Below, one piece after another: positions 17,518 through 22,066 of a stretch of 64,000 nucleotides of DNA (position 1 is the first letter of the stretch; every line of letters starts with the position of its first letter). Below the pieces are notes generated by a model. It was given only the letters and a program-made list of their open reading frames with translations. It was not told where the DNA came from and did not search any database. The stretch lies in the NCBI RefSeq assembly GCF_900116765.1, contig NZ_UETC01000001.1:434001-498000 (forward strand), given 5' to 3'. The translations under genes and the position numbers were made by a program. This DNA is from Jannaschia seohaensis (GTDB lineage Bacteria; Pseudomonadota; Alphaproteobacteria; Rhodobacterales; Rhodobacteraceae).

Positions 17518-19713
17518 TCACAAAAAGCTCTGCGGGTCGATATCGATACTCAGCCTAGCCGACCGGGGCACCTCGACCTGCGCCACCCAGCGGGCGAGCG
17601 CCGCCTGGATCGGCGACTGCCGCGGCGCCTTCACCAGCAGGCGCACCCGGTGACGGCCGCGGATGCGCGCGATGGGGGCGGGGGCCGGGCCGAATACCTC
17701 GGCTCCGACCTCCTCCATCACCTCCGCGCGGCGGGCCAGCGCCTCGCCCAGGGCAAAGGCGGTGCGCTGATCGGGATCCGAGATCACGATCCCCGCCATG
17801 CGCCCGAAGGGCGGGACGCCCGCGGCGCGGCGCTGCGCCGCCTCCTCCGCCCAAAATCCTTCCTCGTCGCCGGACAGGATCGCACGGATCACCGGGTGCT
17901 CCGGCTGATAGGTCTGGAGCAGCGCCACGCCTGGCTTGTCCGCCCGCCCGGCCCGGCCCGAGACCTGGCGCATCAGCTGAAACGTCCGCTCGGCCGCGCG
18001 CAGGTCCGAGCCCTGAAGCCCCAGGTCGGCATCGATCACGCCCACCAGGGTCAGGTTCGGAAAGTTGTGCCCCTTGGCCACCAGCTGCGTGCCGACGACG
18101 ATATCGGCACCGCCCGCCGCGATCTCCTCGACTCGGGCTTTCAGCGCGCGGGCCGAGCCGAAGAGGTCCGAGGACAGGATCGCCATCCGCGCCTCGGGGA
18201 AGAGGGTCGCGACCTCCTCGCCCATCCGCTCCACCCCCGGGCCGGCGACGGCCATCTTGCCCTCGACCCCGCAGGAGGGGCAGGTTTCGGGTATCGGGGC
18301 CGTCTCGCCGCATTGGTGGCACATCAGGCGGCGCTGGAACCGGTGCTCCACCATGCGCGCGTCGCATTGGTGGCAGCCGACCTGCTGGCCGCAGGCCCGG
18401 CACAGCGTCACCGGCGCATAGCCCCGGCGGTTGAGGAAGATCAGCGACTGCTCCCCGTCGATCAGGCGCTGTTCGATCGCGGCCTGTAGGGTGGGTGAAA
18501 CCCACCGCCCCGATGGCAGCTCCTCGGCGCGCATGTCGATGGCGCGCAGCTTGGGCATCCGCGCCTCGCCGAAGCGCGAGGTCAGGTCGAGCCGCGCGTA
18601 TTTGCCCTGCTCAGCATTGGCCCAGGTCTCCAGCGAGGGCGTGGCCGAGGCCAGCACCACCTGCGCGCCTTCGCAGGCGGCGCGCAGCACCGCCATGTCG
18701 CGGGCGGAATAGAGCACGCCGTCCTCCTGCTTGTAGGAGGTGTCGTGCTCCTCATCGACGACGATCAGCCCGAGATCGCGGAAGGGCAGGTAGAGCGACG
18801 AGCGCGCGCCCACCACCAGCCGCGCCTGCCCTTCGGCGGCCTTGCGCCAGGTGCGGCGGCGTTCGGCCTGGGTGACGCCGGAATGCCATTCGGCGGGGCG
18901 GGCGCCGAAACGGGCCTCGACCCGGGTCAGGAACTCGGCCGTCAGCGCGATCTCGGGCAGCAGGACGAGGGCCTGGCGGCCGCGGGCGAGGCATTCGGCG
19001 ACGGCCTCCAGATATACCTCGGTTTTCCCGGAGCCGGTCACGCCCTTGAGCAGCGTCGTGCCGTAGCCCCCGGCGCGAATGGCGGCCCGCAGGGTTTCCG
19101 CCGCGTCGGCCTGATCGAGTGCGAGCGGCTTGCCCGGGCGCGCGGGATCCAGTGGCGGAAAGTCGGCATCCCGCGCCAGCGCCTGCTCCAAGACCGCGCC
19201 CGAGGCGACCAGACCCTTGACGACCCCCGCCGAGACGCCCGCCGCCTCGGCCAGTTCGGTCGCGCCGAACACATCCGCCGGCCGGTCGCGCAGCACGTCG
19301 AGCACCTTGTCGCGCGCCTCGGTCCGGCGGTCCGGCTCCCCGGTGCCCAGCGCGTAGACCTTGCGCTTGCCCGGCGGCTCCCCCAGCCCCGGCGCGCGGA
19401 GGGCGAGGCGCAGCATCGCCACCAGGGGTGTCAGCGTGTAGCCGCCCGCCCGCTCCAGGAAGTCGCGGAACTCTGGGCGCATCGGCGGCACGTCCAGAAC
19501 AGTCAGGATCGGGCGCAGCTTCTCGATCGGCCAGTCGCCCTCCGCCGGGCCCCAGACGACGCCCAGCACGGTGCGAGGGCCCAGCGGCACCTTGACGAAA
19601 TCGCCCTCCGTCACGCCGCCCGCCGGCGCGCGGTAATCCAGCGCGCGGTCCAGAGGCTGTGTGGTCAGGACGGCGACGGGAGCGCCTGCGGGGTAGTGGG
19701 CCATCCGTCCCAT
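17518..19713 (-). CDS. priA: Primosomal replication protein N' (DNA helicase PriA)
   Basis: A 731-residue superfamily-2 helicase that reloads the replicative helicase at stalled forks. The N-terminal DNA-binding domain is followed by the helicase core with Walker A GVTGSGKTEVY (about 235), DEEH box (VVDEEHDTSYKQ), SATPSLE, and the zinc-binding cysteines (CRACGQQVGCHQC, CHQCGE, CPSCG), then motifs V-VI (VGTQLVAKGHNFPN, QVSGRAGR). Length is that of a full PriA. Starts at 19713 or, three codons later, 19704. It appears to be a single-gene unit. Confidence 0.95.
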   Translation of the reverse strand: MGRMAHYPAGAPVAVLTTQPLDRALDYRAPAGGVTEGDFVKVPLGPRTVLGVVWGPAEGDWPIEKLRPILTVLDVPPMRPEFRDFLERAGGYTLTPLVAMLRLALRAPGLGEPPGKRKVYALGTGEPDRRTEARDKVLDVLRDRPADVFGATELAEAAGVSAGVVKGLVASGAVLEQALARDADFPPLDPARPGKPLALDQADAAETLRAAIRAGGYGTTLLKGVTGSGKTEVYLEAVAECLARGRQALVLLPEIALTAEFLTRVEARFGARPAEWHSGVTQAERRRTWRKAAEGQARLVVGARSSLYLPFRDLGLIVVDEEHDTSYKQEDGVLYSARDMAVLRAACEGAQVVLASATPSLETWANAEQGKYARLDLTSRFGEARMPKLRAIDMRAEELPSGRWVSPTLQAAIEQRLIDGEQSLIFLNRRGYAPVTLCRACGQQVGCHQCDARMVEHRFQRRLMCHQCGETAPIPETCPSCGVEGKMAVAGPGVERMGEEVATLFPEARMAILSSDLFGSARALKARVEEIAAGGADIVVGTQLVAKGHNFPNLTLVGVIDADLGLQGSDLRAAERTFQLMRQVSGRAGRADKPGVALLQTYQPEHPVIRAILSGDEEGFWAEEAAQRRAAGVPPFGRMAGIVISDPDQRTAFALGEALARRAEVMEEVGAEVFGPAPAPIARIRGRHRVRLLVKAPRQSPIQAALARWVAQVEVPRSARLSIDIDPQSFL

Positions 19714-19887
19714 ATCGGCGCTGCGGCCAGCGGGGGGAAGGGGCGGCGCCGCGTGCCGGCCTATCCTGTCTTACTGCGCCTTGTCCCTGCGCAATCGCGA
19801 CGGACTCATGGGAAGCCGGGCGCGCGATATGTCGGCGATGCGGGACAAAGCGGTCGTCGGAAAGGGGAAGAGGATCCGATCCGTGAC

Positions 19888-19901
19888 TTGATGAAAATCA
19901 A
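19888..19901 (+). promoter_or_regulatory. FnrL/FNR box, perfect match
   Basis: TTGAT-GAAA-ATCAA is an exact TTGAT-N4-ATCAA site, the consensus for the oxygen-sensing regulator FnrL/FNR in Rhodobacteraceae. Its centre (19894.5) lies about 42 bp upstream of the position where a TATGAA -10-like hexamer (19926-19931) would place transcription start. That is the geometry of an FNR-activated class II promoter. It is the only such perfect site I found in the window. Confidence 0.7.
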
Positions 19902-19926
19902 GGCGTGATATGACGTTTGCAAAAGT

Positions 19927-20595
19927 ATGAATGTCGAGGGGCCGACGCGGTTCGGTGAAGAAGGGCTCTCACTGGAATTCGGTGTGCGGATCTTGGAAAT
20001 GACGTTCCTTTTGGAAATCGCCTACACCAGTGTTGTTTTCGTAGCCCTATACTTGCTTGCGGATTTTGTTAGCGGCCTCTTCCATTGGGCTGAGGATACT
20101 CTGGGCGCGGATGACACGCCGATTTGGGGCCCGTTATTTGCGGCTCCCAATTCGAGGCATCACTCGGACCCGTCGGCAATGCTCAAGATTCACTGGCTCA
20201 GGAACAACAGCCTCTTGGTCGGGGCATGCGTCGGTCTCGCCATGGTTTTTTGGGTTTTTGGAGCTTTGACCTGGCACGTCGTCGTTTTCGCCTTCTTCAC
20301 CGGCACTGCCCAGCAGGTTCACAGGTTCTCTCACGCGCCAAGCGCGCGTCTGCCGAGGTTCGTCCGCTTGCTTCAGCGGATGCACGTCCTGCAAGATGCG
20401 CGGCATCACTGGGGCCACCACAGGGCTCCGCATCTGACGCGCTACTGCGTGGTGACGCCGTGGCTCAATCCTGTGCTGGACAGGATCAAATTCTGGCGTG
20501 TGATGGATCGGCTTTTCGTCCCGATCTTCGGGGCGCCACGCAGGTCGGACCTATGTGAAAAGCCTTGGTACCGCGCCCAAGGGTTCTGGGCATAG
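19927..20595 (+). CDS. CarF/TMEM189 (Kua)-family lipid desaturase
   Basis: A 222-residue (or shorter) membrane protein of the lipid-desaturase family that includes myxobacterial CarF and human TMEM189/PEDS1, which form the vinyl-ether bond of plasmalogens. The histidine pattern is complete: FHWAED, NSRHHSDP, QVHRFSHA and the C-terminal HHWGHHRAPHLTRYC followed by WLNP and FWR. The final block is nearly diagnostic. Base composition is clearly lower in G+C than its neighbours, with many TTG, TTT and TAT codons, suggesting recent acquisition. The ATG at 19927 has no ribosome binding site and would lie upstream of the transcript predicted from the FnrL box; GTG 19984 or ATG 19999 (MTFLLEIAYTS, just before TM1) may be the real start. 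Confidence 0.82.
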   Translation: MNVEGPTRFGEEGLSLEFGVRILEMTFLLEIAYTSVVFVALYLLADFVSGLFHWAEDTLGADDTPIWGPLFAAPNSRHHSDPSAMLKIHWLRNNSLLVGACVGLAMVFWVFGALTWHVVVFAFFTGTAQQVHRFSHAPSARLPRFVRLLQRMHVLQDARHHWGHHRAPHLTRYCVVTPWLNPVLDRIKFWRVMDRLFVPIFGAPRRSDLCEKPWYRAQGFWA

Positions 20596-20720
20596 ATCAG
20601 CGATATGGCTGGGGCGAATTGAGTGGCGGAAATGGGCTTCAAGCAGATATCGTGCCCCCAAGTCTCGCGCCTCCATCCGCCCCATGAAAAGCGAACCGTC
20701 AGGCCGAAGGCCCGGCCGCC

Positions 20721-21347
20721 TCATACGGCCCGCCGCGTCAGCGCAGTCAGCAGGGCCATCCCCATCAGCGCCGCGCCCCCCGCGCGGCCCAGCGCGCGCA
20801 GGACCGGGGGGCGTCGCAGCCGGTCGCGCAGGCGCGCGGCGAGCAAGGCGTAGATCAGTGCGTTCAACACGGCGAGCGTGACGAAGGTCGAGATCAGCAC
20901 CGCGAATTGGGGGACGAGCGCGGCGGCCGGGTCCACGAATTGCGGCACGAAGGCGATGAAGAACACGATGCTCTTGGGGTTGAGCGCGGTCACCACCGCC
21001 GCGTGCCAGAAGACGGCCCGCCCGCCGATCTCCCCCTCGGGGGTGTCGCCTAAGGTGAGCCCTCCGGCCGCGCGCCAGAGCCGCCAGCCCATCCAGAGCA
21101 GATAGACCGCGCCAACCCATTTCAGCACCGTGAACAGCGTTGCCGACGCCAGGACCAGAGCCCCAAGCCCTGCGAGCGATGCCGTCATCGCCGCCGCGTC
21201 TCCCAAGGCCACCCCGGCCGCCGAAGACAAGGCCACGCGGCGGCCCTGCGACAACGCATAGCTCATCACCAGCAGGATCGTCGGTCCAGGGATCGTGAGC
21301 ACGGCCATGGAGGCGGCCGCGAAGGCGAGCCAGAGGGTCAGATCCAT
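20721..21347 (-). CDS. LysE/RhtB family amino-acid exporter
   Basis: A 208-residue inner-membrane protein with six predicted helices. The LysE family signature [19 protein letters not shown] lies at residues 19-37, and the second conserved loop ([19 protein letters not shown]) near 121-139 carries the NPK motif. Such proteins export amino acids such as homoserine, threonine or lysine, or related metabolites; the substrate is not predictable. It is divergent from the transaldolase gene across a 65-bp spacer that contains a TTAGCGCTAA palindrome. Confidence 0.88.
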
Positions 21348-21412: not shown

Positions 21413-22066
21413 ATGAAATTCTTCGTAGATACCGCCGATATCGACGCCATCCGAGAACTCAACGATCTCGGCATGATCGACGGGGTGACCACGAACCCGT
21501 CGCTGATCCTCAAGTCCGGGCGCGACATCCTGGAAGCTACCAAGGAGATCTGCGATCTGGTCGACGGTCCGGTCTCGGCCGAAGTGGTGGCGACCGATTT
21601 CGATCAGATGCTGAAGGAAGGCGAGCATCTGGCGGGAATTGCGGAAAATGTCTGCGTCAAGGTGCCGCTGACCTGGGCCGGTCTGCGCGTGTGCAAGCTG
21701 CTCTCGGATGCCGGGACGCAGGTGAACGTGACCTTGTGCTTCTCGGCCAATCAGGCGCTCCTGGCGGCCAAGGCCGGGGCAAGCTTCATCTCGCCGTTCA
21801 TCGGCCGGCTCGACGACATCAATGTCGACGGCATGGACCTGATTCGCGACATCCGCGAGATCTACGACAATTACGACTTCAAGACCGAGATCCTGGCCGC
21901 CTCGATTCGCACGCCCAATCACATGAAGGAAGCCGCGCTGATCGGTGCCGACGTGGCCACCGCGCCGCCGAACGTGATCCAGGGCATGATCAAGCACCCG
22001 CTCACCGCGAGCGGCCTGGACCAGTTCGTGAAGGACGCGCAGCAGGCCGGCATCAAGATCGTCTGA
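21413..22066 (+). CDS. tal: Transaldolase (small, TalC/FSA-like type)
   Basis: A 217-residue enzyme of the short transaldolase/fructose-6-phosphate aldolase subfamily, working in the non-oxidative pentose phosphate pathway. The Schiff-base lysine is Lys83 in [22 protein letters not shown] (24-31), [11 protein letters not shown] and the [11 protein letters not shown] segment are all present. Length is exactly that of the family. The ATG at 21413 follows GGGAGGA. A 23-codon extension upstream crosses the operator and is not used. Choice between transaldolase and F6P aldolase activity cannot be settled here. Confidence 0.9.

Follow-up and report, generated by a model that had tools for sequence, protein, structure and literature searches.

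The locus examined here raises the question of whether a lone gene resembling the plasmalogen-making desaturase of animals, carried by Jannaschia seohaensis, encodes a plasmanyl desaturase of the CarF/TMEM189 type, as a first-pass annotation had proposed, or an enzyme of another kind. We analyzed the whole 64-kb stretch of DNA surrounding it (64,000 nucleotides; hereafter the window), and the features discussed below are collected in Table 1. The Lipid_desat profile PF10520 matched the open reading frame (ORF) over its full domain with 148.3 bits (cut-off 26.4; E 3.1e-43). Given this value, and with no other match anywhere in the 4.84 Mb genome, the assignment lies far beyond chance; none of 14 control genomes contained a match. 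Membership in the superfamily of CarF, PEDS1 and FAD4 was therefore borne out, and the two motifs quoted beforehand, HHWGHHRAPHLTRYC and WLNP...FWR, were both read in the ORF as given. Since the homologues begin at or near codon 25, translation probably starts there rather than at the first codon of the ORF. A hydropathy plot displayed one hydrophobic stretch ahead of the first histidine, versus two in a human PEDS1 reference sequence. Among solved structures, a sequence search turned up no relative and a profile search none that was believable.

Table 1. Features of the desaturase locus (positions within the window)
Feature	Positions	Strand	Remarks
priA, left flank of insert	17518..19713	-	flank alignment and family match
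Approximate inserted segment, ~990 bp, G+C 0.589	19736..20726		absent from genus relatives; desaturase is the sole likely gene
Perfect FNR/FnrL-type palindrome TTGATGAAAATCAA (TTGAT-N4-ATCAA)	19888..19901		inside insert
Lipid_desat (PF10520) desaturase ORF	19927..20595	+	222 codons; likely true start ATG 19999 (198 aa)
LysE-type exporter (PF01810), right flank of insert	20721..21347	-	flank alignment and family match
Fructose-6-phosphate aldolase/transaldolase (fsa/talC), further right flank	21413..22066	+	model match from residue 21 of longest frame

Next to the family match, the residues known to matter for plasmanyl desaturation can be compared. Mutagenesis of mouse PEDS1, as reported in PMC8960569, found H96, H121, H122, H187, H191, H215, H218, H219 and D100 to be essential and residual activities of 6% for F118A and 7% for H131A; the F118 place is stated there to be totally conserved. 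In our alignment the window protein kept all eight family histidines and D100, which were invariant across the 13 rows aligned, and its first histidine lay 25 residues from the HH motif, which is the spacing of mouse PEDS1 (H96 to H121, PMC8960569). At the place of H131, reached from the HH motif without a gap, it carried an isoleucine, and at the place of F118 an asparagine; a phenylalanine or histidine occurred at these places in 0/12 of the other bacterial homologues aligned. The histidine pattern, which had been described as complete, is so for the eight histidines of the family, but the ninth, which marks CarF and PEDS1 (H131/H113), is missing. H131 of PEDS1 corresponds to H113 of CarF and is reportedly absent from plant and alphaproteobacterial homologues (PMC9131029). 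The same report describes failed carF complementation with three Arabidopsis homologues and one alphaproteobacterial homologue, the latter being from Bradyrhizobium diazoefficiens according to a figure legend (PMC9131029). Since six of the seven members of the clade described below, the window protein among them, have a histidine one residue past the H131 place, it is conceivable that this residue stands in for H131. Asparagine at the F118 place was likewise found in 6/7 clade members. Among the alphaproteobacterial PF10520 proteins outside the clade, it was seen in three of the four short ones (L009, L010, L012, L023), and the two longer ones (L011, L022) had a tyrosine at the H131 place.

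With the NCBIfam CarF equivalog model NF045946, whose cut-off of 500 bits may be stricter than the function requires, the window protein scored 93.5 bits and four other homologues 71–106 bits. For the phylogeny we used 15 rows, two of which were provisional reference sequences (one PEDS1, one FAD4) and none of which was CarF; L013 (partial, below cut-off and with an internal stop), L025 (identical to L002) and L001 (the window itself) were left out, and so were L007 and L008, whose contigs have the same lengths as those of L003 and L004. The window protein and a protein from Cognatishimia (L002) formed a sister pair (support 100/99). Together with five further Rhodobacterales proteins they made up a clade of their own (99/98), and all seven came from genomes of the family to which the window's genome belongs. 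In the NCBI taxonomy, Cognatishimia belongs to the Rhodobacterales, Paracoccaceae; the name Rhodobacteraceae used in the first-pass annotation is presumably the older or GTDB name. Forcing the clade together with PEDS1 made the tree 8.2 log units worse (p-AU 0.033, for a group named after the tree had been seen and containing one PEDS1 row), so that phylogeny spoke against the placement with PEDS1 that had been expected. Forcing it together with FAD4 cost 1.15 log units (p-AU 0.274, again with one reference row and a group named after the tree was seen), and in the best tree the FAD4 row, a long branch, did not join the clade. Owing to this long branch and to the lack of a CarF row, the tree argues only moderately against a place with PEDS1 and leaves a place with FAD4 unsettled.

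A plasmanyl desaturase acts on ether lipids, and we searched the genome for the two enzymes of the known aerobic ether-lipid route, using PF02913 (the C-terminal oxidase domain) alone for AGPS and PF07993 alone for the fatty-acyl reductase. Four PF02913 proteins were present, none of them AGPS: all four matched other oxidases better, namely glycolate oxidase, D-lactate dehydrogenase and a putative oxidoreductase near 2-hydroxyglutarate dehydrogenase (E 8e-76 to 2e-136 for these versus 1e-18 to 3e-28 for AGPS). PF07993 yielded three matches of 21–36 bits (cut-off 20.1), was also found in 14/14 control genomes, and the three proteins were read by eye as sugar-nucleotide enzymes, with no fatty-acyl reductase among them. 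As these searches found neither enzyme, a plasmalogen route via AGPS and fatty-acyl reductase was rejected; other routes or uptake are possible. The observation that no ether-lipid synthesis gene adjoins the ORF proved correct, the flanks being priA and the exporter gene. Given the changes at H131 and F118, the low CarF score, the separate clade, the lack of AGPS and acyl reductase in these searches and the failed carF complementation reported for a homologue (PMC9131029), a plasmalogen role is unlikely. The assignment as a CarF/TMEM189-type plasmanyl desaturase, and the suggestion that the organism may make plasmalogen-like lipids with it, were thus not upheld: the protein resembles the plasmalogen-making enzyme of animals but probably is not that enzyme.

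To place the gene in its genomic context, we compared the locus with those of relatives. PF10520 occurred in 1/20 genomes of the genus, the window's genome included, and the other 19 were without the gene. In 14 of these 19, in which both flanks aligned, the spacer between priA and the LysE gene measured 10–478 bp, versus 965–1055 bp for the window in the same alignments; four further genomes aligned at priA and the aldolase gene with no LysE block, and one at the aldolase gene alone. The approximate borders of the insert were taken from L034, in which the matched ends lie closest together (18 bp). The lower G+C content noticed earlier was confirmed (0.581 for the ORF versus 0.687 for the window), and in a 669-bp sliding-window scan (1267 windows) the ten with the lowest G+C all overlapped the desaturase ORF. 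As for the unusual codons, the ORF did have the lowest codon-adaptation value of 45 ORFs (0.486; next 0.568), but this rank is weak evidence, because the filter applied removed other poor-scoring ORFs and was set to keep the desaturase. Acquisition by horizontal transfer, as had been surmised, is well supported by the absence of the gene from 19 of the 20 genus members, the shorter priA–LysE spacer there and the low spot in G+C. A second stretch with 70% identity to the aldolase gene beside the insert was noted at G000:C35:11630-12237.

Beyond the genus, the family was rare. In overlapping draws that all included the window's genome, PF10520 was found in 5/394 genomes of the family, 4/292 of the order, 6/385 of the class (one below cut-off), 5/398 of the phylum and 7/388 of the relatives (one below cut-off). 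The draw of the order brought two new members, of which one shares its contig with L002, and that of the relatives brought none. Carriage by a mobile element or phage was rejected as a candidate: 72,556 plasmid records gave no protein or DNA match, viral contigs held no confirmed relative, the 64-kb window contained no tRNA, and the borders of the insert displayed repeats of 8 bases only. The clade members, whose neighbors were called with a simple ORF caller that may have missed genes, differed in what surrounds the desaturase. In place of priA and LysE, the other members had PqiA-like and TetR genes, UPF0060 and an unmatched frame, amidohydrolase and Mur ligase genes, MsrA and carbamoyl-phosphate synthase genes, an amidase gene and an unmatched frame, or two genes for RTX-repeat proteins. 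No ether-lipid gene was recognized among the family-matched neighbors, which left two frames without a family match. Since such a stand-alone gene appears to land anywhere, its distribution suggests a substrate and an electron donor such as any host has.

What is new at this locus is a box for an oxygen regulator that lies within the inserted segment. The perfect FNR-type palindrome was the only one in the window, versus 0.01 expected, and one of six in the genome, in which a reversed control pattern occurred nowhere. Within 150 bp of the start, a box with at most one mismatch preceded three of the seven clade members (window, no mismatch; L002 and L003, one each), versus 1/168 control ORFs (Fisher p 1.6e-4, with genes treated as independent even though they are not). 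These controls were those of 183 called ORFs, four PF10520 frames included, that had 150 bp upstream, with starts left unchecked, and the lone hit among them was the RTX gene that neighbors the desaturase of Cognatishimia. The boxes of the window and of L002, at -111 and -110, have flanking bases in common and, the two proteins being sisters, may count as one event. For the other four members, the best box within 150 bp had 3, 5, 5 and 5 mismatches; with 4/7 members thus lacking a box of two or fewer mismatches in this range, FNR wiring does not hold for the clade as a whole. The one-mismatch forms resemble functional Rhodobacter sites listed in PMC4634722. The genome also encodes FnrL (equivalog match of 339 bits, cut-off 300) with a cysteine-rich start, and a one-mismatch FNR box lies just ahead of fnrL. 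A box at -41.5 is described as almost optimal in PMC5398030, and on this basis transcription would start near 19936, between the first and second ATG, which fits the start preferred above. The gene may be wired to a low-oxygen switch through the predicted FnrL box. Regulators of the Dnr type bind similar sites (PMC5398030), so that either low oxygen or nitric oxide may be what is sensed.

Taken together, we put the chance at about one in two (0.5) that the gene arrived by horizontal transfer, stands alone, is linked to FnrL and encodes a membrane di-iron desaturase (Lipid_desat) that acts on an ordinary phospholipid and whose Rhodobacterales clade is distinct from CarF/PEDS1 and not demonstrably FAD4. 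In such an enzyme, the eight histidines and the aspartate would hold two irons that activate O2, a housekeeping donor would presumably supply the electrons, and two hydrogens would be removed from a lipid chain close to the headgroup, the lipid being an ordinary phospholipid in intact form rather than an ether lipid. The placement of the bond is by analogy, as FAD4 acts at carbons 3-4 of phosphatidylglycerol and both named activities of the family act near the headgroup, making either the vinyl ether beside the glycerol or the C3-C4 bond of phosphatidylglycerol (PMC9131029, PMC8960569). The most likely substrate would be a common ester phospholipid. Transcription would be under the control of FnrL or of a Dnr-type regulator via the box, so that the enzyme would be used when O2 is scarce yet present, and we propose that the lipid changes when oxygen becomes limiting. 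More tentatively, the clade could represent a third functional class of the CarF/FAD4 family, namely a mobile single-gene bacterial desaturase of ordinary ester phospholipids. FnrL would induce it as oxygen falls, the double bond would be set near the headgroup, and the membrane would thereby acquire an oxygen-dependent modification in micro-oxic surroundings.

Phosphatidylglycerol is a general bacterial lipid, and desaturation of this lipid by an enzyme of the plant FAD4 type would suit a stand-alone gene. Like FAD4, the 16:1 delta-3-trans phosphatidylglycerol desaturase, the window protein belongs to PF10520 (PMC12456178), carries the eight histidines and D100 and has a residue other than histidine (R in FAD4) at the H131 place, and the p-AU value allows the clade to join FAD4. 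Unlike FAD4, which keeps F118, it has an asparagine there and a shorter N-terminus, and in the best tree the single FAD4 row remained outside the clade; we regard a true FAD4 activity as unlikely. Plant FAD4 is reported to have a peroxiredoxin partner (PMC12456178). The asparagine, found throughout most of the clade and of the other short homologues, points to an altered active site and could alternatively indicate a hydroxylase or another oxygenase on the same scaffold, or a substrate other than a phospholipid, such as an ornithine lipid, a carotenoid or a sphingolipid. This is unlikely, however, as the characterized PF10520 members named in PMC9131029, PMC8960569 and PMC12456178 are phospholipid desaturases, with plasmanyl desaturation in animals, myxobacteria and Leptospira and the FAD4 reaction in plants and algae.

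An actual plasmanyl desaturase, supplied with its ether-lipid precursor by unrecognized enzymes or the surroundings, would share with CarF of Myxococcus xanthus and PEDS1 (TMEM189) of animals the family, the eight histidines, the D100 place and the spacing of the first two motifs (PMC8960569), as the window protein does, and identity was slightly higher to the human PEDS1 reference (33%) than to the FAD4 reference (28%). We nevertheless consider it quite unlikely: isoleucine and asparagine occupy the H131 and F118 places, one hydrophobic stretch and not two precedes the first histidine, the CarF model and the PEDS1 constraint both disfavor it, no AGPS, fatty-acyl reductase or other ether-lipid gene was found in the searches described, and the Bradyrhizobium homologue failed to complement carF (PMC9131029). 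Lastly, the foreign composition and the occurrence in one of 20 genus members would also fit a recent arrival that is little used and has no settled role; the intact frame, the full set of catalytic residues and the perfect regulatory box make this very unlikely.

The known systems close to the window protein also include the CarF homologue of Bradyrhizobium diazoefficiens, a member of the same class whose lack of the H113(CarF) histidine and failure to complement carF are described in PMC9131029; this likeness is by description, and the homologue may belong to this clade or to another of the alphaproteobacterial groups seen here. Aerobic modification of phospholipid chains in related bacteria is also known from the furan fatty acid enzymes UfaD and UfaO of Rhodobacter (PMC7380195). 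A link to that pathway, with UfaO or UfaD as a possible CarF-like protein, was rejected, as UfaD is an NAD/FAD-binding protein and UfaO carries DUF1365 according to PMC7380195, and both thus belong to other families. In the open-licence literature we found no published function for an alphaproteobacterial PF10520 protein, and the one complementation reported is the failed one (PMC9131029). The present locus cautions against labelling every CarF-like protein a plasmalogen enzyme. It combines a solitary gene with an insertion whose empty site is seen in relatives and with a testable control by oxygen, so that a single deletion or expression strain, together with lipidomics, could reveal the activity of the group.

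As to the other perfect FNR boxes of the genome, one lies right where the longest ccoG frame begins, although the true start of this frame may be later. Apart from those of the desaturase, ccoG and ppk2, the three remaining boxes are at genes for which, to our knowledge, there is no report as FnrL targets. One (G000:C16:760131-760144; L059 1501) starts ~94 bp before a gene running from about 1595 on the + strand for a CrtI/carotenoid-isomerase-like FAD oxidoreductase below the equivalog cut-offs, conceivably a further lipid or carotenoid enzyme used at low oxygen. Another (L061 1501) precedes the gene for a VPLPA-CTERM protein after msrA, and a third (L062 1501) lies near a long frame. The box at G000:C16:707610-707623 (L058 1501) starts 71 bp ahead of a gene for polyphosphate kinase 2 and agrees with the ppk2 site of R. 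capsulatus, where the direct FnrL targets include ccoN and a ppk2 gene (PMC4634722).
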